Below, piece by piece: positions 8,167 through 57,957 of a stretch of 58,144 nt of DNA. A program made the position numbers and the translations under genes. Below the pieces are notes generated by a model. The model had not been told where the DNA came from. It worked only from the letters and a program-made list of their open reading frames with translations, and did not search any database. Source of the stretch: Desulfatirhabdium butyrativorans DSM 18734 (GTDB taxonomy: Bacteria > Desulfobacterota > Desulfobacteria > Desulfobacterales > Desulfatirhabdiaceae); the NCBI RefSeq assembly GCF_000429925.1, contig NZ_KE386985.1, forward strand, positions 1-58,144, read 5' to 3'. How positions within the stretch are numbered: the first letter of the stretch is position 1; each line of letters opens with the position of its first letter.

Positions 8167-10191
8167 TCAACCGATGACAGCGAGGGCCGCTCCCTTGGGA
8201 ACTGAATCGCCGCTCTTGTAATTAATGGCTTTGATTACGCCATCCAACGGCGCAGGAAGGGCATTTTCCATTTTCATTGCCTCCAGAACGACTACCGTCT
8301 CACCCTTGCTGACGGCATCGCCTACATTCTTTTCATAGCGAACGATCATACCCGGCATGGGCGCCGAAAGGGCTGTTCCATCGACAGGTTGCTCTGCAGG
8401 AGCTGCTGCAGGTTTGGCGGTTGCTGCATCGGCTTTGGATTCCGCCGGCTTGGAGGGAGCGGCGGCCGCAGGAGCCGCGGCTGTACGGGATGGTGCAGCC
8501 GCAGGTTGAACCGATCGAATCAGCGGAGTGCCGCCGATTTCTTCCACTTCCACGGAAAAGAATTCGTCGTCAACAAACACATTGAACTTTCTCAAGTTAT
8601 CCCCTTTAGTTACTGTAGGTTTATCGGATTTTTCCACCAGTTTTCCGGCAAGAGCCTTCTTGATCAAATCCTCTCTGGCTTTGACCTGATCCAGCGTGAT
8701 CGGCTTCACTTCAGCTGGAACGGGCTCCTTTCCATATTTCCACTGGAGGAAGCGTTTACCGGTAACCGGGTACAGGGCATAGATCAACACATCATCCAAA
8801 TCCGCTGCAAGACCTGCTGTCTCGGCCTTGGCTTTTTCAAGTTCAGGCTCGATAACCTCGGCCGGTCTGCAGGTAATCGGGGTTTCGCCGCGCGGATATC
8901 CCTTGAGCGCTTTTTTCTGCAGCTCCGGGTTGATCGGAACGGCCGTCTTTCCGTAGAGCCCGTAGCAAAGGTCTTTTACCTGAGCCGTGATCATCTTGTA
9001 GCGCTCATTTTCGTCATCAAAGAGGACATTGTTCACCGTCTGGATGCCAACAATCTGGCTGGTTGGCGTAACCAGCGGAATCTGTCCCAGATCTTTTCGG
9101 ACCTTGGGAAGCTCGGCATATACTTGATCGATCTTGTCGAGCGCATTCATTTCCCGAAGCTGGTTGACGAGGTTCGAGAGCATGCCGCCCGGGGTTTGGT
9201 GGAGAAGAACGTTGATATCGATGATGGACATCTTCGTATCGTCCAGCAGGTGGCGGTATTTGGGGCAGATTTCCTTTTCCAGGATTTCGTTGATCTTGGC
9301 CAGTGCCCGGATATCGAAACCGGTATCGCGGTTGGTTCCAAGCAGCGTCATGACAAGCGGTTCAATGGCCGGGTGAGAGGTACGGAAGGCGTATGGCGAC
9401 ATACAGGTATCGACGATATCGACACCGGCCTCGATCGCTTTGAGATGCGCCATCGAGGACATGCCCGAGGTAAAATGGCTGTGCAGATGGATGGGCACCT
9501 TGACCGATTTCTTGAGCGCCTTGACGATGGCATACGCATCATAGGGCGCAATGAGACCTGCCATATCCTTGATGCAGATGCTGTCCGCACCCATTTTTTC
9601 CAATTCGATGGCTTTGTTGACGTAGTACTGGAGATTGTATACATCGCCGCCGAGGCGGGGTTCTGTCAGGGAGTAGCAAATGCATCCCTGAAAATGCTTG
9701 CCGCTCGATTTGATGACGGGAACGACCGTTTCGAAATTCCGGTAATCGTTCAGCGCATCAAAAGTCCGAAAAATGTCCATGCCATTGGCTGCCGCCCTTT
9801 CCACGAAGGCTTTTGCCACATCGTCTGCATAATTGCGGTATCCGACAAGGTTCTGTGCGCGAAGAAGCATTGAAAAAGGCGTCTTTTTGATATACCGCTT
9901 CAGGGTTCGGATCCTTTCCCAGGGGTCTTCGTTCAAAAAACGGTGCATCGTATCAAACGTTGCTCCTCCCCACGTTTCCATGGCCCAGAAACCGATTTCA
10001 TCCATCATTTCTGCCACGGGGATCATGTCTTCGGTTCGACCCCTGGTGGCGAACAGGGACTGATGGCCATCTCTTAGGGTAAGATCCTCGATCTTTACGG
10101 GATTCTCCGCCTTTGGTCTATTCTTGCCGTAATTCATGGCGGTCATTTTCACTTGATCTTGTGCCGACATGGGTTTTTCTTGCGCTGCCAT
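8167..10191 (-). CDS. Biotinylated pyruvate/oxaloacetate carboxyltransferase subunit (PycB/OadA/5S type)
   Basis: 674 residues. The N-terminal HMGL-like carboxyltransferase barrel opens with IEDLTLRDGHQSLFATR. CIKDMAGL and a metal-binding HLHSHFTSG follow. Next come the PYC/OadA domain, an Ala/Pro-rich linker (about 560-605) and a C-terminal biotinyl domain with EAMKMEN. It would move carboxyl between pyruvate/oxaloacetate and biotin. With the carboxyltransferase at 10481-12034 it forms a methylmalonyl-CoA:pyruvate transcarboxylase-like unit with 5S and biotin carrier fused. Start 10191 is chosen because GAGGAG lies 9 bases upstream. No membrane OadB-type pump is nearby, which favours a soluble transcarboxylase over a sodium pump. 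Confidence 0.9.
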   Translation of the reverse strand: MAAQEKPMSAQDQVKMTAMNYGKNRPKAENPVKIEDLTLRDGHQSLFATRGRTEDMIPVAEMMDEIGFWAMETWGGATFDTMHRFLNEDPWERIRTLKRYIKKTPFSMLLRAQNLVGYRNYADDVAKAFVERAAANGMDIFRTFDALNDYRNFETVVPVIKSSGKHFQGCICYSLTEPRLGGDVYNLQYYVNKAIELEKMGADSICIKDMAGLIAPYDAYAIVKALKKSVKVPIHLHSHFTSGMSSMAHLKAIEAGVDIVDTCMSPYAFRTSHPAIEPLVMTLLGTNRDTGFDIRALAKINEILEKEICPKYRHLLDDTKMSIIDINVLLHQTPGGMLSNLVNQLREMNALDKIDQVYAELPKVRKDLGQIPLVTPTSQIVGIQTVNNVLFDDENERYKMITAQVKDLCYGLYGKTAVPINPELQKKALKGYPRGETPITCRPAEVIEPELEKAKAETAGLAADLDDVLIYALYPVTGKRFLQWKYGKEPVPAEVKPITLDQVKAREDLIKKALAGKLVEKSDKPTVTKGDNLRKFNVFVDDEFFSVEVEEIGGTPLIRSVQPAAAPSRTAAAPAAAAPSKPAESKADAATAKPAAAPAEQPVDGTALSAPMPGMIVRYEKNVGDAVSKGETVVVLEAMKMENALPAPLDGVIKAINYKSGDSVPKGAALAVIG

Positions 10192-10243
10192 AGTTGTTTT
10201 CTCCTCATCCATCTGCTTTTCATTGGATTCCGTCTAAAGCGGA

Positions 10244-10468
10244 TCAGCGAATGCCGTGCCCACGAAACGTTCGCATCTGCATCAACCCTCGCCATTGCAT
10301 CATGTCAAGTCTACCGCTCAAGCCCCAGTGTTTCTGGGTCATGGGGGTTGGCGCCGGCTGCGCCCCGGTTTCTGGCGTACCGGCTTCAAGCTGCATGGTG
10401 TCCTCTTCGGATCGGATAAAGGCATATACCGCGGAGACGGCAGCCTTCATTTTTGGCGTCAAATTCAT
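10244..10468 (-). CDS. Small conserved protein of carboxyltransferase operon
   Basis: 74 residues between the two carboxyltransferase genes, 12 bases after one and 52 before the other. It begins MNLTPKMKAAVSAVYAFIRSEE, an amphipathic helix typical of small accessory (gamma/epsilon-like) subunits of acyl-CoA carboxylases. It ends with a conserved-looking WGLSGRLDMMQWRGLMQMRTF. The middle is Pro/Thr-rich. I infer an assembly or linker role between the CoA-binding and biotin subunits; no catalytic motif is present. Presence as a gene is supported by tight packing and the patterned ends. Confidence 0.7.
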   Translation of the reverse strand: MNLTPKMKAAVSAVYAFIRSEEDTMQLEAGTPETGAQPAPTPMTQKHWGLSGRLDMMQWRGLMQMRTFRGHGIR

Positions 10469-10480
10469 CGCAATGCCTCC

Positions 10481-12034
10481 TTAAACCGGTATATTGCCGT
10501 GCTTCTTGGGTGGGCGAGTTTCACGCTTCGAGCACATGATCTCCAGGGCATCGATCAACCTCGGCCGTGTTTCACGTGGAACAATGACCGCGTCGATATA
10601 CCCCCTACTGGCTGCGCAATACGGATTGGAGAAAAGATTCTCATATTCCTGAATCTTTTCCTTGCGCTTCGCCGTGGCATCAGCTGCTTCCTTGATTTCC
10701 TTGCGATGAATGATGTTTGCCGCTCCTTCGGCTCCCATGACGGCGATCTGGGCTGTGGGCCATGCAAAGGCCATGTCGGCGCCGAGATCTTTCGAGCACA
10801 TCGCCAGATAGGATCCGCCGTAGTCTTTGCGGGTGACAAGCAGCAGCTTGGGGACGGTCGCTTCCGAATAGCACCATAAGAGTTTCGCGCCATGGCGGAT
10901 AATGCCTCCCCACTCTTGCTGGCTTCCGGGCAGGTATCCGGGCACATCGGCGATGGTCAGCATCGGAATGTTGAATGCATCGCAGAACCGGATGAAGCGG
11001 GTGGCTTTGTCGGAGGCGTTGATATCGAGGCATCCGGCCATCACTTTCGGTTGGTTGGCAATGATGCCAATGCTTCGACCGTTGAGCCGCGCAAAGCAGA
11101 CCACCATGTTCGGCGCATAATATTCGTGAGGCTCGAACATTTCTCCGTTATCCACGATGGAGCGGATCAGCGTTTTCATGTCGTAAGACTGGTTGGGGCT
11201 GTCCGGGATCAGCGTGTCGAGGGCTGGATCGGTCCGGGAGGGGCTGTCACCAGTTGGGATCGTTGGCGGATCTTCCATATTGTTGGACGGAAGATAGGAA
11301 AGCAAAACCTTGATCTTTTCGATGGTATCTGCATCATTTTCGCAGGCGAAATGGGCAACGCCGCTTTTTTCATTGTGTGTCATGGCGCCGCCCAGGTCTT
11401 CAAAGCTGATCTCCTCTCCTGTAACCGACTTGATGACCTCGGGGCCGGTGATAAACATATAGGATGTGTTCTTCACCATGAAAATCCAGTCGGTCATGGC
11501 AGGCGAATAAACTGCGCCCCCTGCCGTCGTTCCAAGAATGGCCGAAATCTGCGGGATAACGCCGGAGGCAAGGGCGTTGCGATAAAATATCTGACCAAAA
11601 CCGCTGAGTGCATCGACCCCTTCCTGGATTCTTGCGCCGCCGGAGTCATTCATGCCGATGAATGGGACACCTGCTTTCATGGCGAGGTCCATCACTTTGC
11701 AGATTTTCTTGGCATGCATTTCTCCGAGCGAACCGCCCCGGCTCGTAAAGTCCTGGGAAAAGGCGAATACGGGCCTGCCCTGAACAAGGCCATGGCCGGT
11801 GATGACCCCATCGCTGGGAATCTCGACTTTTTCCATTCCGAAATTCGTACATCTGTGTGTGACGAACATATCGATCTCCCGAAATGTTCCCGGGTCAAAC
11901 AACAGATCGAGGCGTTCTCTGGCGGTGAGTTTCCCTTTTTCCTTTTCCTTGGCGATGGCCTTTTCGCCTCCCATCTGAAGGACCCGTTTTTCTTTGGCCT
12001 TCAGTTCCTGGATTTTGTCTTCCACAATGCCCAT
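10481..12034 (-). CDS. Acyl-CoA (methylmalonyl/propionyl-CoA) carboxyltransferase subunit
   Basis: 517 residues of the crotonase-fold carboxyltransferase family (12S/PccB/MmdA). Motifs: KLTARERLDLLFDPGTF at the N-terminus, DFTSRGGSLGEMHAKKI, GMNDSGGARIQEGVDAL, the GTTAGGAVYSPAM oxyanion region, and C-terminal GGSYLAMCSKDLGAD. It transfers carboxyl between biotin and propionyl-CoA/methylmalonyl-CoA. Start MGIVEDKIQ at 12034 is preceded by AAAGGA. It heads an operon with the small subunit, the biotinylated subunit and sucCD. Methylmalonyl-CoA mutase lies upstream, which makes the methylmalonyl-CoA assignment likely. Confidence 0.92.
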   Translation of the reverse strand: MGIVEDKIQELKAKEKRVLQMGGEKAIAKEKEKGKLTARERLDLLFDPGTFREIDMFVTHRCTNFGMEKVEIPSDGVITGHGLVQGRPVFAFSQDFTSRGGSLGEMHAKKICKVMDLAMKAGVPFIGMNDSGGARIQEGVDALSGFGQIFYRNALASGVIPQISAILGTTAGGAVYSPAMTDWIFMVKNTSYMFITGPEVIKSVTGEEISFEDLGGAMTHNEKSGVAHFACENDADTIEKIKVLLSYLPSNNMEDPPTIPTGDSPSRTDPALDTLIPDSPNQSYDMKTLIRSIVDNGEMFEPHEYYAPNMVVCFARLNGRSIGIIANQPKVMAGCLDINASDKATRFIRFCDAFNIPMLTIADVPGYLPGSQQEWGGIIRHGAKLLWCYSEATVPKLLLVTRKDYGGSYLAMCSKDLGADMAFAWPTAQIAVMGAEGAANIIHRKEIKEAADATAKRKEKIQEYENLFSNPYCAASRGYIDAVIVPRETRPRLIDALEIMCSKRETRPPKKHGNIPV

Positions 12035-49250: not shown

Positions 49251-50630
49251 CTACTCTGTAACATGAATACTGACGATATTATCAATGACAATCTGCCCAT
49301 TTGTTTTCTGATAGGCATATGCGTAGATAAACATATCTTCAGCGTCAAGGCCAAGATCGGCCATTTTCCACAGGCCCAGCCCCGTGATGCCGGAAGCATC
49401 GAAGAAGGGGTAGGTATACTGGCTTAAGTGATCGATGATGTAAGCAGAATCGACGACGCCCAGCGGGGTGATGACATAGACAGGCGAAAGCGTATTCGAT
49501 TTCATCGCTTCAGACAACAGCCATTCATGCAACGGTTGGTCCCCGTGTTGGTTGGAGTTATTCACGGCGAGCTGGACGGTCTTTGTTTTGGAAAGCATCA
49601 CATGGATCAAGCCGGGATCGGCGCCGATGATATCGTACTGACCGGAACCAGCCTGCTGGATCGTGATGGTCTGGGGACTTTTTGCGGCTCCGGCGGATGT
49701 CACCTGAACCGTGCCCACACGGGAGGAAACCCCGGTGTTTGCCGTTGCGCTGCACTCGAATGATCCCGCGCCTATGCCTGAGGGACTGCTGGAAATGGAA
49801 AGCCAATCCTTGCCGGATATTACTTCCGCCGACCAGTTGTAAAAAGGTATCGGATCTGTCGTATTGAAGGAAACCTCGAATTTGGCTTTCTGGCCTTGCT
49901 GCGTTATCGGCAGGGATGTCGGTGAAACCACCAAGGTATAAGTCGATCCGTCTTGGGCCATCTCTATGTTCATGGAGCTCTGAATAATTTCGACAGGATC
50001 GCCATTATCCGCATAAGCCTTGCCTGTAACTTCGATGATACCACTTCGCTTATCCGTGGTATTGGTTGGCAACACGGTACAGGTCAGCTCACCGGTGTTC
50101 GTTCCGTTGGAACTGCTCAATTGAATCCAGTCGGAACCTTCTGTTACGGCTGCCTGCCACTCAATACGGCCATAACCGCTGTTGAAAATCGTCAGGCTGG
50201 CATTGCCTCCGCTTCCAGAAGTGTGAATATATCGCGAAGAGGCGGTCAGGACCGGTGAATTCAAGCCATATTGCGTAATGGTCAGGGTTTTCGGTGATCC
50301 CATTGCGCCTTGAGAACTGACGGTGAGGCTACAGGAGCGGGGCGCAGTGCCGTTGTAAGCATCGACAGATAGCTGGATGGAGCCTGAACCGCTGCCCGCA
50401 GCCCCCGAATCGATATGTACCCAGTTGATGTCTTGTTGCACTTCGGCTGACCAGTTCAAGGTGCCAGAGCCGGTGTTGTAAACAGCGAACGAAAGATGAC
50501 TGCTCTGATAGCCGACAGCCTGAGACAAGGGCGAAACGGAAAGAACAGGAATGACAAGATCAGCGCTTGCCAAGGAAGGGAAAATAACCAGAAAAAACAA
50601 CGTGAATGGTATCGCGCATGATTTCCGCAT
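49251..50630 (-). CDS. Secreted BACON-repeat protein
   Basis: 459 residues with a signal peptide (MRKSCAIPFTLFFLVIFPSL, cleavage near ASA). Three beta-rich repeats of about 90 residues start near 25, 118 and 215. Each has NTGSGTLNWSAEV/ NWSAEV-like strands, W-x-x-I/L-S/D and a closing TLTITQ/TITIQQA. This is the Bacteroides-associated carbohydrate-binding-often N-terminal type of Ig-like domain. The C-terminal 130 residues are unrecognised. AAAGGAG precedes the start. Function is probably surface adhesion or ligand binding; no enzyme motif is seen. Confidence 0.8.
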   Translation of the reverse strand: MRKSCAIPFTLFFLVIFPSLASADLVIPVLSVSPLSQAVGYQSSHLSFAVYNTGSGTLNWSAEVQQDINWVHIDSGAAGSGSGSIQLSVDAYNGTAPRSCSLTVSSQGAMGSPKTLTITQYGLNSPVLTASSRYIHTSGSGGNASLTIFNSGYGRIEWQAAVTEGSDWIQLSSSNGTNTGELTCTVLPTNTTDKRSGIIEVTGKAYADNGDPVEIIQSSMNIEMAQDGSTYTLVVSPTSLPITQQGQKAKFEVSFNTTDPIPFYNWSAEVISGKDWLSISSSPSGIGAGSFECSATANTGVSSRVGTVQVTSAGAAKSPQTITIQQAGSGQYDIIGADPGLIHVMLSKTKTVQLAVNNSNQHGDQPLHEWLLSEAMKSNTLSPVYVITPLGVVDSAYIIDHLSQYTYPFFDASGITGLGLWKMADLGLDAEDMFIYAYAYQKTNGQIVIDNIVSIHVTE

Positions 50631-50947
50631 GGTTAGATCTCCTTTCTGCAAAATTGCCCGACTGCAGGCGACCGCAGTCTGCACCAATACTTTGTCCTCC
50701 AAGACAAGGATTATTGAACAATGCTCCTCCCGAGTCAACCAACAATACATTCGTTATGCGCTCAAGTCCAAAGCCTGTAAAAACGATCGAAAAGATCAGG
50801 CAAAACCAGCGATTTCGTATAAAAATAGAACGAACGTTCGATTTTTATGATTGACTTCTGTTTTTCGTTCCGATACGGTCTTTCGAAGCGAAAAACGATG
50901 TCATCCAATGGTTTTTCATTCCCATTCCAGACCTTCAGGAGATTGCC
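50631..50947. other. Divergent promoter region between BACON gene and acyl-CoA dehydrogenase
   Basis: 317 bases without a gene. It contains the palindrome described next, and a TTGACT at 50851-50856 that could be a -35 for the plus-strand acyl-CoA operon, with only a weak -10. Confidence 0.45.
50825..50846. promoter_or_regulatory. Candidate TetR operator
   Basis: CGAACGTTCG at 50831-50840 is a perfect 10-bp palindrome in an A/T-rich frame (ATAGAA on the left, ATTTTT on the right). It is located about 107 bases upstream of the acyl-CoA dehydrogenase whose operon encodes a TetR regulator, which typically binds such sites. Confidence 0.5.
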
Positions 50948-52153
50948 ATGAATTTTGAAATACCGGAAAAGATGCAGGTCATCACCCGCATGATCGATGA
51001 GTTCGTCGAAAAGGAGCTGATACCGCTGGAGCCGCTGGTGCTGGCCAAAGGATTCAAGGCCGCTCTGCCCGAGCTGGAAAAAAAGCGGGACATGGTTCGG
51101 CAGATGGAGCTGTGGGCTCCCAACCATCCGGTCGAATACGGCGGCATGGGGCTCAGCCTCAAGGAACATGCTCTCGTATCCGAATGCCTGGGCCGTTCGG
51201 TCCTCGGGCATTACGTCTTCGGATGTCAGGCTCCGGATGCGGGAAACATCGAAATCCTGCACCTGTTCGGCACACCGGAACAGAGGGAACGGTGGCTTCG
51301 GCCTCTGGTCGAAGGCAAGATCCGAAGCTGCTTTTCGATGACCGAAGTCGAGATGCCGGGCTCCAACCCCACGATGATGGATACGACAGCCGTCAAGGAC
51401 GGGGATGACTATGTCATCAACGGTCAGAAATGGTACACATCATCATCGGATGGAGCTGCCTTCGCCATCGTCATGGCCGTCACGAATCCCGATGCCCCCA
51501 TCTACCAGCGATCCAGCATGATCATCGTCCCCACCGACACGCCTGGTTTCAATCAAGTGCGCAACATTCCCGTCATGGGAGAGCCCGGAGAGGACTATTT
51601 CGGGCATGGCGAGATCCTGTACCAGAACTGCCGGGTCCCGCAATCGAATTTGCTCGGTCCGGAAGGCGGCGCCTTCGCCATCGCTCAGGAGCGGCTCGGC
51701 CCCGGTCGGATCCACCACTGCATGCGCTGGATCGGCATCTGCAACCGCTGCTTCGATTTGATGATCCGGCGAGCCGCCACCCGTCCCATCGCACCCGGCA
51801 AAACCCTCGCCCACAAGGACATCGTTCAGATGTGGATCGCCGAATGCGCGGCCGAGATTCAGGCGGCCCGCCTCATGGTGCTCTATGCGGCCGATCGGAT
51901 CGACCGTTTCGGTGCGAAGGCGGCACGCACCGAAATTTCGATGATCAAGTTCGTCGTTGCCAACACCATGATGAAGGTGATCGATCGGGCGCTTCAGGTG
52001 CATGGCGGTCTGGGGATGACCGATGACACGATCATCGCCTGGCTCTACCGGCATGAACGTGCCAGCCGCATCTATGACGGTGCGGATGAAGTACACAAGC
52101 TGGCTGCAGCCCGCCAGATTCTGCGAAACTATGCCGGGAAGCAGGCCGCATGA
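50948..52153 (+). CDS. Acyl-CoA dehydrogenase, ACAD10/11-like
   Basis: 401 residues, FAD-dependent. FAD/substrate motifs: CFSMTEVEMPGSNPTMM, WYTSSSDGAAFAIVM, QVHGGLGMTDDTIIAW. The region holding the usual catalytic Glu (YEGTxE) instead reads IYDGADEVHK, as in ACAD10/ACAD11 and bacterial LvaC-type proteins, which act on 4-phospho-acyl-CoA in 4-hydroxy-acid degradation. The separate APH-fold kinase at 53225 is the other half of vertebrate ACAD10/11. Gene neighbours therefore support this subfamily. The chain length of the substrate is unknown. Confidence 0.9.
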   Translation: MNFEIPEKMQVITRMIDEFVEKELIPLEPLVLAKGFKAALPELEKKRDMVRQMELWAPNHPVEYGGMGLSLKEHALVSECLGRSVLGHYVFGCQAPDAGNIEILHLFGTPEQRERWLRPLVEGKIRSCFSMTEVEMPGSNPTMMDTTAVKDGDDYVINGQKWYTSSSDGAAFAIVMAVTNPDAPIYQRSSMIIVPTDTPGFNQVRNIPVMGEPGEDYFGHGEILYQNCRVPQSNLLGPEGGAFAIAQERLGPGRIHHCMRWIGICNRCFDLMIRRAATRPIAPGKTLAHKDIVQMWIAECAAEIQAARLMVLYAADRIDRFGAKAARTEISMIKFVVANTMMKVIDRALQVHGGLGMTDDTIIAWLYRHERASRIYDGADEVHKLAAARQILRNYAGKQAA

Positions 52154-52896
52154 TCTCCGAATCAACCGGTCCGAAAACCGGTACCAGAGCACGAAAGATG
52201 CACAATTTCGAAAGATTCATGGAAAACGTGAACCTTTCGAAGCAGGAAATCTATCGCCGTTCGTTCGATGAAAAACAAAACGGTGGTAAGATCAAGAAAG
52301 ACAGCACGGTCGTTCGCAATCTGGAGCGGATCTTCGGGGCGGTTCTGAAGATCAGCAACCAGAAGGGTTTCAAGGCCATGAGCATGCGGGATCTGAGCCG
52401 GGAGAGCGGGCTCAGCATGGGAGCGTTGTACAATTACTTCTCCGGTAAGGATGACCTGCTCGAAATGCTGCAGCACCAGCAGCGCCAGATGTCGGCCACG
52501 ATCCTCGAGCGAAGCGTTGCCGAGGCATTGGACCCCCTCGAAAAACTCCGATCCATGGTGGTGACCCATCTCTATCTGAGCGAAGCCATGCAGCCCTGGT
52601 TCTTTTTCTCCTACATGGAAACGAAGAACCTGATCGGAGAAGAACGGGAAAAGGCCATCGAAAGCGAGCGGGCCACCGAGAAGATGATCTGCGACATTCT
52701 GACCGAAGGGCAGCAACAGGGCGTCTTCGCAGACCAAGACCCGCTTCTGTCCGCATCCCTCATCAAGGCCATGCTGCAGGACTGGTATCTCAAGCGAGGA
52801 AAGTATGCAGAACGGAAGATCACGGTAGAGCGGTACGCCGAATTTGTGATGGAGTGGATCGAGGCTTTTGTGGTGAAAGCAGAAGTCAGGAATTAG
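52150..52896 (+). CDS. TetR-family transcriptional regulator
   Basis: 248 residues. An unusually long about 50-residue basic N-terminus precedes the helix-turn-helix (AMSMRDLSRESGLSMGALYNYFSGKDDLL, about residues 77-105). The ligand-binding domain follows (FFFSYMETKNLIGEEREKAI). The ATG overlaps the dehydrogenase stop by 4 bases (ATGA). An internal ATG at 52198 or 52219 might be the true start. It probably represses its own operon in response to an acyl-CoA. Confidence 0.9.
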   Translation: MISESTGPKTGTRARKMHNFERFMENVNLSKQEIYRRSFDEKQNGGKIKKDSTVVRNLERIFGAVLKISNQKGFKAMSMRDLSRESGLSMGALYNYFSGKDDLLEMLQHQQRQMSATILERSVAEALDPLEKLRSMVVTHLYLSEAMQPWFFFSYMETKNLIGEEREKAIESERATEKMICDILTEGQQQGVFADQDPLLSASLIKAMLQDWYLKRGKYAERKITVERYAEFVMEWIEAFVVKAEVRN

Positions 52897-53040
52897 GTGT
52901 CAGGAGTCAGAAAAACAGCGGATGAATCCTGTTTTCATGGGTGAGGGTAACTCCCCATGTCGGCGCAATTATCCCAAAAATGCAGGCGATTGGCTATAGG
53001 CTATGGGCAATGGGTTTCTGGTCTATTTTCCTGGCCGGGG

Positions 53041-53187
53041 CTCGCAAAAAGTCGATCCACCCCCGATTTTCGGGAATTTCTGGGCCTGAGCATGAGGCGG
53101 GTACGCCTTACGAGATCGGGCGGCTGAGTTTTTTCGATGCAGCGAAAAAGGTGTGCCCACTCCCATGCGGCTTGTTGGAGACTAACT
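53041..53187. repeat. Mosaic repeat, uninterrupted form
   Basis: Runs from CTCGCAAAAAGTCGATCCAC to GGCTTGTTGGAGACT. It matches the two outer parts of 48151-48475 and lacks the 155-base insert found there. It fills most of the gap (52897-53224) between the TetR gene and the APH kinase gene. A TCAGGAGTCAGAA short repeat also lies at 52880-52914. Confidence 0.75.
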
Positions 53188-53224
53188 GATTTGATGGTGA
53201 GGGGATACTGAGGAAGGAGAAACG

Positions 53225-54292
53225 ATGGACAGTCAATGGATCGACGATGCAGTTGAGGTCCGCAAAGGTGAAGAACTCGATCTGCCGAAGGTCGAGACCT
53301 TTTTGCGGGACAGCATTCCCGGCCTGAGGGGAGAAATGGTGTTGAAGCAGTATCCGGGCGGGCATTCCAATCTCACCTATTCCGTCCGTTTTGAAAACCG
53401 CCAACTGGTGTTGCGCCGGCCCCCCTTCGGAACCAAGGCCAAAAGCGCCCATGACATGAGCCGGGAATATCGCATCCTGAAGGCCCTCAAGCCCGTCTAT
53501 CCCTATTGCCCCAATCCCGTTGTTTTCTGCGATGATCCGGCCGTCATGGGATGTCCCTTCTATGTCATGGACCGCATCGAGGGGATCATCCTGCGCCGAA
53601 ATCCGCCTCGAGGTTGGTCGCTTTCCGCCGATCAGGTCAGAACCCTTTTCGAGAAAGTCATCGAAACCCACCATGCGCTTCATGCGCTCGACTACCGGAC
53701 GATCGGACTCGAGAATTTCGGAAAACCCGAAGGGTATGTGGCCCGCCAGGTCGAAGGCTGGATTGGGCGATACCGGGCCGCCCGCACACCGGATGCCCCG
53801 GATTTCGAATCCGTAATGGAATGGCTCTTGGCGCACCAGCCTCCCGATTCCGATCGCCCCTGCGTCATTCACAACGATTTCAAATTCGATAACATCGTCC
53901 TCGATCCGGCCGATCCCCTTCGGATCATCGGCGTTCTGGACTGGGAGATGGCCACGATCGGTGATCCGCTGATGGATTTGGGAAGCAGCCTTGGCTATTG
54001 GGTCGAAAAGGGTGATCCGGAAGAAATGCAGGCGATTCGGACCCTGCCTACCCACCTGGATGGGGCGCTGACCCGCCTGGAAGTGGTGGCGCACTATTCG
54101 GCCCTCTCCGGCAGACCGGTGGAGCAGTTCGAATTCTATTACGCATTCGGGCTGTTCCGCCTGGCCGTCATCGCTCAGCAGATCTACTACCGCTTCTACC
54201 ACGGTCAGACGCAGGACAAGCGCTTCGGGACACTGATTGTTGCCGTTGCGGTGCTGGAAAAAGCCGCCAAAAGACTGTTGGCGCTGCCCTGA
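53225..54292 (+). CDS. APH-fold phosphotransferase, ACAD10/11 kinase-half or LvaA-like
   Basis: 355 residues. Kinase features: GGHSNLTYSVRFENRQLVLRRPP, catalytic VIHNDFKFDNIVLDP and the metal-binding GVLDWEMATIGDPLMDLG. This subfamily is fused to acyl-CoA dehydrogenases in vertebrate ACAD10/11 and is separate as LvaA in the Pseudomonas levulinate pathway, where it phosphorylates 4-hydroxyacyl-CoA. Pairing with the dehydrogenase at 50948 fits. It is not an antibiotic-resistance gene in my reading. GGAAGGAG precedes ATG 53225. Confidence 0.9.
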   Translation: MDSQWIDDAVEVRKGEELDLPKVETFLRDSIPGLRGEMVLKQYPGGHSNLTYSVRFENRQLVLRRPPFGTKAKSAHDMSREYRILKALKPVYPYCPNPVVFCDDPAVMGCPFYVMDRIEGIILRRNPPRGWSLSADQVRTLFEKVIETHHALHALDYRTIGLENFGKPEGYVARQVEGWIGRYRAARTPDAPDFESVMEWLLAHQPPDSDRPCVIHNDFKFDNIVLDPADPLRIIGVLDWEMATIGDPLMDLGSSLGYWVEKGDPEEMQAIRTLPTHLDGALTRLEVVAHYSALSGRPVEQFEFYYAFGLFRLAVIAQQIYYRFYHGQTQDKRFGTLIVAVAVLEKAAKRLLALP

Positions 54293-54546
54293 GCGGTTTG
54301 CAGCAAAGACTGCTCAGCCTTTGCAGGCTTGTTATGGGAGCAATGACCTTGGGAGCAGAAGAATCGCTGTTCCGTGGCTGTTAAGCAGCGAAAGCACGCC
54401 TTTTGCGGGAGGGGCTAAGGACATGCCAACCTCTTGCGATGACAGAAAGTGATTCCGGCTGATGCCGGAATGACATCCCTATCTTAGCAAATCGATATTA
54501 TTGAGGTTTGCAGGCGAATGACTTGCTCTTGAAAGGATACCGGCAA

Positions 54547-56109
54547 ATGGCCTTTGAAGCGGAAATGCAAAACCATGCCGAGCGGGTGAATCGGGCGCTG
54601 GCCATGGGTGGCCCGAAAAAGATCGCGCAGCTCCATGCTCGTGGAAAATACAGCGCACGGGAACGAATCGACCGTCTGTTGGATACCGGATCGTTTCTGG
54701 AAATCGGGCGATTCAACCACTCGGATGTTCCGGGGATGGAGGCAAAAACGCCAGCGGACAGCAAAATCGGCGGCTACGGAACCATCGATGGCAGGCGGAT
54801 CGTGGTTGTCGCCAATGATTTCACGGTGCTGGCGGCCACATCCAGCCGGATTGCCGGACGTAAGGAGGGAGAGCTCAAGCTCGCTGCGGCCGAGAAAGGC
54901 TTTCCGGTCATCTACCTGGGCGAGGCCGGCGGGGCGCGCATGCCGGATATCATGGGCTCGAAAGGGCTGGCATCCTTCGGAGGCGGCGGGCATGACACCT
55001 ATCTGAAAATCATGAGCCGGGTCCGTCGGACACCCATGATAACGGCCATTCTGGGAGAATGCTACGGCATGCCGACTTGGATGGCCTGTCTGTCGGATTT
55101 TGTCGTTCAGCTCAAGGGAAGTGCCATGGGGGTGTCCGGGCCCCGTGTTCTGGAGCTGGCCCTTGGCGAATCTGTTACCGATGAGGAACTCGGGGGATGG
55201 CAGGTCCACAGTGAAATCACCGGATCGGTGGATCGGGTTGCAGAAACAGAAGACGAATGCTTCATGCTCATTCGCCGGTACCTGTCCTATATGCCCGATC
55301 ATTGCATGGCGCTTGCCGAGCGGAAATCGGTTCCGGAAGGTTCCGGCTCAGAAATGCCGCATATCCTCGATTGGTTGCCGGAAAAACGCAACCGGGCCTA
55401 TGACATGCACCGAATTCTGGAATGTATCGTGGATCGGGACTCACTGTTTCCCGTCAAGCCGACGTTCGGTCAGGCCGTTATTACCGCTTTGGCGCGGCTC
55501 GATGGCCGATCCGTCGGGATTGTGGCCAATCAGCCCAGTTTCAACGCAGGCGCCATGGATACCGATGGCATCGACAAGGTCATCAGTTTCTTGTGCCTTT
55601 GTGATTCCTTCAACATTCCACTGCTCTTCTTCCACGATATTCCCGGATTCATGGTCGGAAAGGAGGCGGAGCGCAACCGTGTCGCCTCCCGGGTCATGAA
55701 CTACATGAACGCCCTGGGGCTGCTGACGGTTCCACGGATTTCCGTCATCGTTCGCAAGTCTTACGGCATGGCTTTCTGGAACATGTGCGGCTCCGGTTGT
55801 GGCGCAGATTTTTTGGTTGCATGGCCAACAGCGGAAATGAGCTTTGTCGATCCGGCGATTGCGGCCAATGTTGTCCATGCAGGCAAATCGCCGGATACCG
55901 ATCGGCAGTCCGAAGAATGGCTTCAATTGAAGCGTCAACTGACAGACGATGCCTCACCCTATGGGGCGGCCGGGCTGCATTATCTGCACGACGTCATCGA
56001 TCCGAGAGAAACCCGCGATTACATCGCCAAAGCCCTTGCCATCTGTCAGGAGTCGAGGACACGAGGCATTGGAGAGCACCGGCTGGCGAACTGGCCTACC
56101 AAATTCTGA
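54547..56109 (+). CDS. Acyl-CoA carboxylase carboxyltransferase subunit
   Basis: 520 residues, crotonase-fold carboxyltransferase. N-terminal KYSARERIDRLLDTGSFLEIG, then YLGEAGGARMPDIMG, the oxyanion-type GPRVLELALGESV and GGWQVHSE, and C-terminal KSYGMAFWNMCGSGCGADF. It is paralogous to 10481-12034 but the N-terminus, FGGGGHDTY loop and acceptor region differ, so another acyl-CoA is likely carboxylated or decarboxylated. No biotin carboxylase or biotin carrier is next to it. Start 54547 is chosen for AAAGGAT at 9 bases. The stop overlaps a repeat. Confidence 0.88.
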   Translation: MAFEAEMQNHAERVNRALAMGGPKKIAQLHARGKYSARERIDRLLDTGSFLEIGRFNHSDVPGMEAKTPADSKIGGYGTIDGRRIVVVANDFTVLAATSSRIAGRKEGELKLAAAEKGFPVIYLGEAGGARMPDIMGSKGLASFGGGGHDTYLKIMSRVRRTPMITAILGECYGMPTWMACLSDFVVQLKGSAMGVSGPRVLELALGESVTDEELGGWQVHSEITGSVDRVAETEDECFMLIRRYLSYMPDHCMALAERKSVPEGSGSEMPHILDWLPEKRNRAYDMHRILECIVDRDSLFPVKPTFGQAVITALARLDGRSVGIVANQPSFNAGAMDTDGIDKVISFLCLCDSFNIPLLFFHDIPGFMVGKEAERNRVASRVMNYMNALGLLTVPRISVIVRKSYGMAFWNMCGSGCGADFLVAWPTAEMSFVDPAIAANVVHAGKSPDTDRQSEEWLQLKRQLTDDASPYGAAGLHYLHDVIDPRETRDYIAKALAICQESRTRGIGEHRLANWPTKF

Positions 56110-56245
56110 CGACTTCGCCAAAAGGCCGGATGTCCCGCGTTCCGCGGGATCGTGCTGCCTCCCTCGTCGTTGCGGCGTACGTCTTCGTACGCTTCGATCC
56201 TCAGGATTTGCACGCCTTGCCCGCGGCCTTTTTTCGAAGCCGTCC
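56108..56245. repeat. 138-bp repeat with imperfect terminal inverted repeats, copy 2
   Basis: GACGACTTCGCCAAAAGG on the left and, reversed, GGACGGCTTCGAAAAAAGG on the right. The interior GCAAATCCTGAGG and CAAGGCG (read on the minus strand) match 1229-1355. It begins within the stop codon of the carboxyltransferase gene. Confidence 0.7.
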
Positions 56246-56304
56246 ATATGCTCGACTTCTTGTGAATTTATCGAATTCTAATCCAACGCCAAGGAGACCC
56301 CGCC

Positions 56305-57957
56305 ATGGAAAACATCTGGATGAAACACTGGCCTCAGGATGTTCCGCAGACCCTGACCTATACGCAAGGAAACAAACCCATCCATGAATACCTCCGGCAT
56401 CGCGCACAAGAGCGGCCGGATAAGACCGCAATCGTGTATTACGGCAGGGAGATCTCCTATCGCGAATTGGATACGGCATCCAACCGGTTTGCTGCCTACC
56501 TCTTGAATCAGGGTGTGAAAAAAGGGGATCGAGTCGGCATTTTCATGGGCAATTGTCCGCAATATGCGATAGCTCACTTTGGTATTCAGAAGATCGGAGC
56601 CATTGTCTGTCCCTGTTCTCCCCTCTTCAAGAAATTCGAACTCGTTCATGAACTCCAGGATGCCGGAATCCAGATTCTCGTCGCGTGGGACATCCTGATG
56701 CCTGTCGTCAAGGAAGCGCTCTCCGAAACGGCGCTGAAGAAAGTGGTCACAACCAACCTGCGGGACTTTCTGCCAGCCGAACCCTGCTTCGCTCTGCCTG
56801 CCATGATGAATGTTCCCAAGCGGGCGATCCCGGGGACCGATGATTTTCAGCAGATCCTATCAAGCGATCTTCCCGATCCCGAAGAAGTGCCCATCGACAT
56901 GAAGACGGATATCGGATTGTTCCAGTATACCGGAGGGACGACCGGAATGCCGAAAGGCTGCATGCTCGGATTCGATGCGGCCCTTTTCAAGACGGCGGCG
57001 GTTTGTGCCATCACCCATATGGGGCCTGACTCCGTATGTCTTGTCACCATGCCTATTTTCCATATCGCCGGGATGCTTGCCGGGATAAACAGTTGCATCT
57101 ATGCCGGGGCAACCCAGGTGCTGCTGACCATCTTCGATGCTGAAACCGCCATGCAGGCCATATCCCGGTACAGGGTCGATTTCTGGTACAGCGCAGTTCC
57201 CATGAACGTGGCCATACTGGCCCATCCCAAAACTTCCGAATATGACCTGAGCAGTCTCCGGCTCTGTCTGACATCCTCTTTCGGCATCCAATTAACGGAG
57301 GCCATTTCACGGCAATGGGCGGAGCGCACAGGCGGCGGGCTGCTCATCGAGGGCGCCTATGGGTTGAGCGAAACCCATACAGCCGATACCTTCATGCCCG
57401 TTCAGCGCATCAAATACGGATCAATGGGCATACCCGGATTTTCGGAAGAATTTCGAATCGTGGATTTGACGGATCGGAATCGGGAGATGCCGGTTGGTGA
57501 ACCCGGAGAGATCGTTCTGAAAAACCCTGGCGTATTCAAAGGCTACTGGAACCAGGAAAAGGCCACCCGGGATACCCTGATCGATGGATGGGTGTATACC
57601 GGGGATATCGGTCGATTTGATCAGGATGGCTATCTGTATCTTCTGGGACGAAAGAAAGAAATGATCAAGGTTTCCGGATTCTCGGTCTTTCCCGAGGAGG
57701 TCGAGGCGATTCTGAATCGGCACGAAGCTGTCGCCCAGTCGGCCGTCATCGGCATGCCGGATGCGCGCCGGGGGGAAGTGGCCAAGGCCTTTGTGGTCCT
57801 CAAGCCCGATCATCCGATTTCTGCGGAAGAGCTGCTGCTATGGGCGAAAGAAAACATGTCCTCATATAAATGCCCTGGGGAGATCGAATTTCGGGATACC
57901 TTGCCGACACTGGGGACAGGAAAGCTCTTGAGACGGGCGCTGAAAGCCGCCTCCTGA
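56305..57957 (+). CDS. Acyl-CoA synthetase (AMP-forming)
   Basis: 550 residues, ANL superfamily. The ATP/AMP loop is FQYTGGTTGMPKGCML. YGLSETHTADTF is the adenylate-binding region. The C-terminal domain has YTGDIGRFDQDGYLYLLGRKKEMIKVSGFSVFPEEVE and a C-terminal catalytic Lys in LGTGKLLRRAL. It activates a carboxylic acid to its CoA ester. As LvaE-like partner of the dehydrogenase and kinase it may feed 4-hydroxy acids into the pathway; the real substrate is unknown. Preceded by GGAGACC. Confidence 0.92.
   Translation: MENIWMKHWPQDVPQTLTYTQGNKPIHEYLRHRAQERPDKTAIVYYGREISYRELDTASNRFAAYLLNQGVKKGDRVGIFMGNCPQYAIAHFGIQKIGAIVCPCSPLFKKFELVHELQDAGIQILVAWDILMPVVKEALSETALKKVVTTNLRDFLPAEPCFALPAMMNVPKRAIPGTDDFQQILSSDLPDPEEVPIDMKTDIGLFQYTGGTTGMPKGCMLGFDAALFKTAAVCAITHMGPDSVCLVTMPIFHIAGMLAGINSCIYAGATQVLLTIFDAETAMQAISRYRVDFWYSAVPMNVAILAHPKTSEYDLSSLRLCLTSSFGIQLTEAISRQWAERTGGGLLIEGAYGLSETHTADTFMPVQRIKYGSMGIPGFSEEFRIVDLTDRNREMPVGEPGEIVLKNPGVFKGYWNQEKATRDTLIDGWVYTGDIGRFDQDGYLYLLGRKKEMIKVSGFSVFPEEVEAILNRHEAVAQSAVIGMPDARRGEVAKAFVVLKPDHPISAEELLLWAKENMSSYKCPGEIEFRDTLPTLGTGKLLRRALKAAS

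Follow-up and report, generated by a model that had tools for sequence, protein, structure and literature searches.

An ACAD10/11-type acyl-CoA dehydrogenase and kinase encoded beside an orphan carboxyltransferase in Desulfatirhabdium butyrativorans: a probable entry route for 4-hydroxy acids

The 58,144-nucleotide stretch of Desulfatirhabdium butyrativorans DSM 18734 analyzed here (contig NZ_KE386985.1, called the window below) carries at positions 50948–57957 five co-directional genes on the + strand, encoding an acyl-CoA dehydrogenase (ACAD), a TetR-type regulator, an APH-fold kinase, a carboxyltransferase and a CoA ligase, and it raises the question of which substrate such a set would serve. 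A sequence-only reading of this DNA had likened the set to the LvaA/LvaC/LvaE logic, with LvaB missing and an orphan carboxyltransferase added, and had proposed a possible route for 4-hydroxy acids or lactone-derived acids in which a product is carboxylated. Inspection of the open reading frames bears out the five genes, all five products match Pfam above the cut-off, and the DGADEVH motif read in the dehydrogenase is present. We consider it probable that the five-gene set, the carboxyltransferase included, channels 4-hydroxy acids, which lactones may supply, into β-oxidation. The family placement, the catalytic residues and the conserved neighborhood are established; we infer the substrates, the order of the steps and the role of the carboxyltransferase. 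The anaerobic lifestyle assumed for the organism rests on named relatives.

By sequence, the dehydrogenase (401 aa; 50948–52153, + strand) is a member of the ACAD10/11 clade and is LvaC-like, as Pfam, PDB matches, residues and a tree indicate. Its best PDB matches are the ACAD11 entries 2wbi, 8v3u and 8v3v (E 5e-82 to 4e-81), and it is ∼41% identical to ACAD11; it also matches 4hr3, a putative ACAD, at E 2.5e-80, and the next ACAD lies far behind at E 1e-45. In mouse ACAD11, D753 is catalytic, and substitution at R626, H634 and R637 (HCMR motif) is the most harmful (PMC12440821). The alignment pairs Asp377 with Asp753, Arg249 with Arg626, and His257-Cys-Met-Arg260 with the HCMR of residues 634–637. 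A maximum-likelihood tree of 38 rows, from which LvaC and ACAD10 were left out and in which ACAD11 is represented by segments of ∼355 residues, places the dehydrogenase in a 17-row clade with ACAD11 at support 100/100, while all 21 rows of paralogues from its own genome (20 different sequences, since two rows are the same) fall outside. The clade also takes in Sphingopyxis, Burkholderia, Tistrella, Rhodococcus, Gemmatirosa and Halocatena homologues, and it spans proteobacterial, actinobacterial, gemmatimonad and archaeal sequences. Within it, the dehydrogenases of the window's class form a subclade with Gemmatirosa (100/99) and, less surely, with a R. rhodochrous sequence (85/87), and this subclade is separate from the ACAD11 side. 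The catalytic Asp and the upstream Arg are present in all 17 clade rows and HCMR in 16 of them (Tistrella has HAMR), while HCMR occurs in 0/21 paralogue rows and an Asp in the catalytic column in one (own_L101, weakly scoring). The phylogenetic check that had been set beforehand thus groups the enzyme with ACAD11, apart from the ordinary ACADs of its genome, and an ordinary short- or medium-chain acyl-CoA dehydrogenase is ruled out by the tree and the residues.

The kinase (355 aa; 53225–54292, + strand) is assigned by Pfam, PDB matches, residues and a structural model as an APH-fold small-molecule kinase of the LvaA or ACAD10/11 kinase-domain type. The closest solved entry by sequence is 9o56, annotated 'aminoglycoside phosphotransferase' (E 6e-96), followed by the ACAD11 kinase domain and 3dxp (E 1e-50). 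Residue mapping equates the catalytic Asp218 and Asn223 and the substrate-region Arg174 with D220, N225 and R176 of the ACAD11 kinase, whose R86 has no confident equivalent position here. A drug-resistance aminoglycoside kinase was considered and rejected, as the APH(2'') matches are weak (E 1e-4 to 5e-4) versus 1e-50 for ACAD11. The proposed parallel with an LvaA/LvaC-type kinase and dehydrogenase pair is consistent with these retained residues and sequence matches. Because the dehydrogenase sits in this clade and the catalytic residues of both enzymes are kept, phosphorylation of a 4-hydroxyacyl-CoA by the kinase followed by elimination to a 2-enoyl-CoA by the dehydrogenase is a well supported prediction.

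How closely does the set resemble known systems? Like mammalian ACAD10 and ACAD11, it combines, by sequence, an APH-type kinase with an acyl-CoA dehydrogenase that has the catalytic Asp, HCMR and the upstream Arg; unlike them, it comprises two separate proteins, with the dehydrogenase in a subclade of its own, and adds the carboxyltransferase, the TetR protein and the ligase. DUF6285, which we take to be LvaB, is absent from the window's genome and was found in 4 of the 389 genomes of the class. Judged by DUF6285, the absence of LvaB that had been read from the window is usual in the class, and it has a precedent in the lva-like cluster of Pseudomonas citronellolis LA18T, which lacks lvaB and in which a gene for a histidine phosphatase separates those for the kinase and the dehydrogenase (PMC6692424). 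The ACAD10/11 reactions were shown with recombinant proteins, and the available portions of the two reports mention no LvaB partner (PMC12440821, PMC11342911). The lva operon of Pseudomonas putida encodes a kinase (LvaA), a dehydrogenase (LvaC) and a CoA ligase (LvaE) together (PMC6692424), as the window does. The five genes, however, do not include LvaB, the LvaD reductase or the sigma54-type LvaR, and have a TetR gene and the carboxyltransferase instead; the lva likeness therefore holds for the three shared enzymes, and the locus is not an lva operon.

We then asked how common the pair is among the 389 genomes of the class, using E up to 1e-105 for the dehydrogenase and up to 1e-75 for the kinase. 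The dehydrogenase occurs in 127 genomes, the kinase in 117 and both in 112, and in 95 of these 112 they lie ≤10 kb apart. The pair is therefore common in the class. Neighbors were counted by tblastn in 40 dehydrogenase loci, hand-picked from the 127 dehydrogenase-bearing genomes (21 loci from genomes without the carboxyltransferase and 19 from genomes with it), some of which end at contig ends; L158 is identical letter for letter to L071 in their overlap, and each was counted once within its own set. In 34/40 loci the kinase follows the dehydrogenase in the same orientation within 6 kb, and a TetR gene does so within 3 kb in 33/40. A histidine-phosphatase-like (HisPhos) gene stands directly upstream on the same strand (<1.5 kb) in 27/40, and electron-transfer flavoprotein (ETF) genes lie ≤6 kb away in 30/40, upstream and divergent in 27/40. 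A 605-aa type of ACAD is found ≤8 kb from the dehydrogenase in nine loci. In one of the 40 loci alone (L159 630–5134), the dehydrogenase has a DUF6285 gene nearby, next to TetR and HisPhos genes.

The window locus is without the upstream HisPhos gene and the divergent ETF genes. Elsewhere in the same genome (C68:68573–73175, equal to L163 8574–13176), a HisPhos gene stands divergent to an ETFb-ETFa-DUF362 series, and this block is the second half of a module that many relatives keep in one piece. The P. citronellolis cluster resembles the class in having no LvaB and a histidine phosphatase comparable to HisPhos (27/40 loci), and differs from the window's genome, where the HisPhos homologue is on another contig. 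The first catalytic motif of HisPhos (RHG or RHA) is intact in each of the 30 rows that reach it, L062 being cut short. At the position where the canonical motif would place the second catalytic His, all 31 rows have Ser, including L071 6334–7044 and L163 8574–9281. From these sequences, the HisPhos proteins may bind a phosphate compound instead of hydrolyzing it.

What is new in the locus is the carboxyltransferase (520 aa; 54547–56109, + strand), an orphan family with altered active-site motifs. Pfam, NCBIfam, PDB matches, alignments, a tree and a model assign it to the acyl-CoA carboxylase type. PF01039 (Carboxyl_trans) covers the whole protein (355 bits, residues 43–516), and the best PDB match is the PccB-type subunit 1vrg of propionyl-CoA carboxylase (E 1.5e-94). 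Subunits of methylcrotonyl-CoA carboxylase (MCC), geranyl-CoA carboxylase (GCC) and glutaconyl-CoA decarboxylase were set aside as more distant (best E 4e-52, 3e-52 and 3e-23 versus 1.5e-94); they are also missing from the 50-row fold list, from which no exclusion follows. The canonical AGGAVY and YGGAY-type motifs contribute the oxyanion holes of such enzymes. Here both are non-canonical and read YGMPTW and YGMAFW, within CYGMPTW and SYGMAFW. Of the genome's four other carboxyltransferases, three retain AGGAVY and YGG(A/S)Y, and the fourth (L010) has neither. In an alignment of 25 sequences (A2), the second motif has GMA in 25/25 and the first YGMP in 23/25, with FGMP in L060 and YGEP in L082 as the exceptions; outside this alignment L064 has YGGP at the first motif, and the motifs vary in the more distant relatives L045, L046 and L047.

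The structural model of the carboxyltransferase (pLDDT 72, weak at the active-site loops and for this reason kept out of active-site claims) gives a PccB-type fold as its best match (Z 37.0, rmsd 3.7, 463 aligned, 32% identity), and the 35 best fold rows are acyl-CoA carboxylase-type subunits (VIA Z 32.5–37.0, 26–34% identity). The protein thus shares the carboxyltransferase domain and fold with the PccB, 12S transcarboxylase and AccD types, and differs from them in both glycine-rich motifs, in its 26–34% identity, in its separate tree group and in having no adjacent biotin carboxylase or carrier. In a tree of 31 rows, that group (84/92, drawn open) stands apart from the canonical enzymes and includes plasmid-borne Cupriavidus, Variovorax and Sulfitobacter relatives (40–46% identity). 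The orphan status had been claimed from the window alone; at the thresholds used, no biotin carboxylase or carrier match is found near the window gene, nor in 33 of the 34 loci of the genome_contigs set.

Might the protein catalyze transcarboxylation or decarboxylation in concert with another carboxyltransferase and a free biotin carrier, and not as part of an ATP-driven carboxylase? In L082 (5168–11563), the window-type carboxyltransferase is in a row with two CaiB-type matches, a biotin carrier and a second, distant carboxyltransferase, with no biotin carboxylase match. The 44–46% identical relatives encoded on Cupriavidus and Variovorax plasmids have a CoA transferase, a biotin carrier and another carboxyltransferase as neighbors. 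The window's genome, moreover, has five carboxyltransferase-domain matches and one biotin carboxylase-domain match versus seven biotin/lipoyl-domain matches, some of them perhaps lipoyl. However, biotin carboxylase and biotin carrier are encoded beside the relative in all five plasmid regions inspected (the second carboxyltransferase and the CoA transferase in four, the Sulfitobacter region having neither), 33 of the 34 loci show no carrier or carboxylase match, and no partner was identified within the window's genome. On balance we find this explanation fairly unlikely.

Some further observations concern biotin-dependent genes. The plasmid gene sets of L110–L112 and L114 (Cupriavidus and Variovorax) encode two different carboxyltransferases, a biotin carboxylase, a biotin carrier, a CaiB-type CoA transferase and also tricarboxylate-transporter binding proteins. 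The sole biotin carboxylase domain found in the window's genome (C3:89160–89480) shares its protein with a biotin domain, and the flanking genes encode carboxyltransferases and an ACAD; no separate AccC was seen in this 97%-complete genome. In the window itself, positions 8173–11947 (− strand) hold a canonical carboxyltransferase adjoining a biotin-domain protein with a 688-codon open frame, and this pair is possibly a methylmalonyl-CoA:pyruvate transcarboxylase.

The carboxyltransferase could also be an accessory acyl-CoA carboxylase subunit outside the route, adjacent by chance. With E up to 1e-120 and identity down to 43%, it occurs in 38 of the 389 genomes, and it lies ≤10 kb (start to start) from the dehydrogenase or kinase in 10 of them; of the remaining 28, five have neither gene. 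Among the 34 genome_contigs loci (with L042–L044, the same stretches as L052, L054 and L064, excluded from cluster counts), the dehydrogenase or kinase is ≤9 kb away in 9, a number that rises to 13 when the same ligase is counted and to 15 with a 4-hydroxybutyryl-CoA-dehydratase homologue. The other 19 have none of these within 9 kb, although many of the loci are shorter than full flanks and absences may reflect missing sequence, and some unlinked copies adjoin transporter or transposase-like genes. The long intergenic gaps in the window point the same way. Against a chance neighborhood stand the 15 linked loci, the tight series dehydrogenase-ligase-carboxyltransferase-thiolase in L069 and L071, where the gaps are 28–50 bp, and the co-occurrence with the dehydrogenase (32/38 carboxyltransferase genomes versus 127/389 overall; Fisher p 6.5e-12, without correction for genome size or relatedness). 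We judge chance adjacency unlikely. The carboxyltransferase may carboxylate a short acyl-CoA product, serve as a transcarboxylase or just happen to lie nearby.

Which substrate, then, do the other genomes suggest? In L069 and L071 the gene order is HisPhos, dehydrogenase, ligase, carboxyltransferase, thiolase, 605-aa ACAD, hydroxyacyl-CoA dehydrogenase and hydratase, and L071 goes on with DUF362, TetR, kinase and hydroxyacyl-CoA dehydrogenase. A gene series resembling that of L071 is found in L077, which is letter for letter the start of G225:C11; in that genome (99% complete, 5% contaminated), neither the dehydrogenase nor the kinase has a match at the thresholds used. Its order is 605-aa ACAD, a 4-hydroxybutyryl-CoA-dehydratase homologue, carboxyltransferase, thiolase, hydroxyacyl-CoA dehydrogenase, hydratase, DUF362 and hydroxyacyl-CoA dehydrogenase, so that the dehydratase homologue adjoins the carboxyltransferase. 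With a match to 1u8v at E 4e-90, this homologue retains C99, C103, H292 and C299, the four cluster ligands of that entry; NCBIfam gives HpaB models alone, all under their cut-offs. A homologue of this kind is likewise found nearby in L060 and L081. L052 comes from a genome of the same family as the window and has the dehydrogenase, TetR, kinase and carboxyltransferase genes; there, a gene between the carboxyltransferase and a CoA ligase (36% identical to the window's) is closest to Dr0930 and related phosphotriesterase (PTE) entries of the Dr0930/GKL group (E about 1e-110). Dr0930 and GKL are phosphotriesterase-like lactonases (PMC7084321). Because of the L069/L071 series, the G225 dehydratase homologue and the L052 lactonase-type gene, the neighborhoods in other genomes favor 4-hydroxyacyl-CoAs, perhaps derived from lactones, in line with the route that had been proposed. 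We also entertain, tentatively and as somewhat unlikely, interchangeable 4-hydroxyacyl-CoA entry modules, either kinase plus eliminase or the dehydratase homologue, coupled to the carboxyltransferase with altered motifs, which would carboxylate or decarboxylate a route intermediate.

In the route that we propose, the CoA ligase would make the 4-hydroxyacyl-CoA, the APH-type kinase would phosphorylate its 4-hydroxyl, and the ACAD10/11-type flavoenzyme would remove the phosphate with transient use of FAD to yield the 2-enoyl-CoA, which would then be shortened by ordinary hydratase, hydroxyacyl-CoA dehydrogenase and thiolase. The TetR protein is probably an acyl-CoA sensor. The carboxyltransferase would act in the same route as a biotin-dependent subunit of the acyl-CoA carboxylase type, with a biotin carrier from elsewhere in the genome, on an acceptor that we guess to be propionyl-CoA or another short acyl-CoA derived from the substrate. 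Among the open-licence papers listed, titles and abstract openings yielded neither a description of an anaerobic lactone or 4-hydroxy acid pathway of such make-up nor a paper on the five-gene set in sulfate reducers.

Several observations weigh against this route. The carboxyltransferase is near the dehydrogenase or kinase in just 10 of its 38 genomes, and elsewhere it sits among seemingly unrelated genes, e.g., beside HlyD-type, ABC and CorA genes in L061 and beside CorA in L063. The replacement by the dehydratase homologue is seen in one genome, at a contig end, and a 35% identical relative of the homologue stands beside the dehydrogenase itself in L133 and L149. The window's own genome contains no PTE-family gene. 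In the fold comparison for the kinase model, the ACAD11 kinase domain comes 18th, under 3dxp and the 25-hydroxysteroid kinase. Finally, the main departure from the redox-neutral mechanism reported for ACAD10/11 (PMC12440821) is the presence of ETF genes near the dehydrogenase in 30/40 sampled loci; such an eliminase would have no use for them, although other dehydrogenases of the route may. An anaerobic alkane route was considered separately and rejected for want of support: in Desulfatibacillum alkenivorans (L061), the three carboxyltransferase neighbors tested are HlyD-type, ABC transporter and CorA.

The ETF genes would find a direct use if the dehydrogenase instead oxidized its substrate and passed the electrons to a dedicated ETF, the product being an oxidized phospho-enoyl-CoA or its dephosphorylated form, with HisPhos aiding phosphate removal. 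The upstream, opposite-strand ETF genes of 27 loci, the HisPhos gene directly upstream in 27/40 and the HisPhos-ETFb-ETFa-DUF362 block elsewhere in the window's genome would fit such a role, and a phosphatase has been proposed as a possible phosphate remover (PMC6692424). However, the window dehydrogenase keeps the ACAD11 phosphate-elimination residues, HisPhos with its Ser for the second catalytic His (31/31) is perhaps inactive as a phosphatase, and the ETF may belong with other ACADs active in the route, the 605-aa type for instance. We regard an oxidizing role as quite improbable.

The fold comparison bears on the last alternative. The kinase model (pLDDT 84) best matches 3dxp (Z 30.3, rmsd 2.6, 320 aligned) and fits the 25-hydroxysteroid kinase 9ft5 (Z 24.8, rmsd 3.7, 326 aligned) better than ACAD11 (Z 18.3, rmsd 2.8, 224 aligned); kinship with the ACAD11 kinase is thus singled out by sequence, whereas the fold list does not single it out. 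The 25-hydroxysteroid kinase of anaerobic cholesterol degradation is likewise an APH-type enzyme that prepares a dehydration via a phosphate ester, on a steroid substrate and followed by phosphate elimination by an unknown lyase (PMC8449060). That the window kinase acts in this manner on another hydroxyl, such as a tertiary alcohol on the side chain of an isoprenoid or steroid, is very improbable given its weak sequence similarity to the 25-hydroxysteroid kinase 9fsg (E 8e-13) versus 1e-50 to the ACAD11 kinase and an ACAD11-clade dehydrogenase as its partner.

The remaining features of the locus concern its layout. The TetR-type regulator (TetR_N and TetR_C_24 by Pfam; 52150–52896, + strand), a recurrent neighbor downstream of the dehydrogenase, has an uncertain start, as ATG 52150 overlaps the dehydrogenase stop and a later start, e.g., ATG 52220, is possible. 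The AMP-forming acyl-CoA ligase (550 aa; 56305–57957, + strand) is assigned by Pfam, NCBIfam and its neighbors; its best NCBIfam match, PRK06178, scores 565 bits, under the cut-off of 782, and it is 65–68% identical to the ligase adjoining the carboxyltransferase in L069, L071, L073, L076, L078 and L142. The carboxyltransferase probably starts at ATG 54547 rather than at TTG 54508, because its relatives align from there and GAAAGGA precedes it. The intergenic gaps (328 bp from TetR to the kinase, 215 bp from the kinase to the carboxyltransferase when measured from TTG 54508, and 195 bp from the carboxyltransferase to the ligase) are long for a single transcript, and neither promoter-like sites (5 versus a mean of 4.0 in shuffles) nor terminator-like sites (5 versus 7.7) are enriched across the locus. 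The operon that the sequence-only reading assumed thus stands as five co-directional neighbors, and a single operon is unsupported. The grouping is not chance, because the same genes neighbor each other in other genomes. A gene for a protein with several BACON domains by Pfam (49251–50750, − strand) lies just ahead of the dehydrogenase gene and points the other way.

The chemistry of ACAD10 and ACAD11 in mammals was reported in 2024–2025 (PMC11342911, PMC12440821). The human system lets cells burn 4-hydroxy fatty acids, and the set described here is a bacterial look-alike. The many bacterial homologues, with their recurrent HisPhos, ETF, DUF362 and TetR partners and sometimes a non-canonical carboxyltransferase, provide material with which it can be tested how phosphate elimination fits into anaerobic metabolism and whether electrons are handed on from the flavin. 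Should the carboxyltransferase belong to the route, its substrate awaits discovery.

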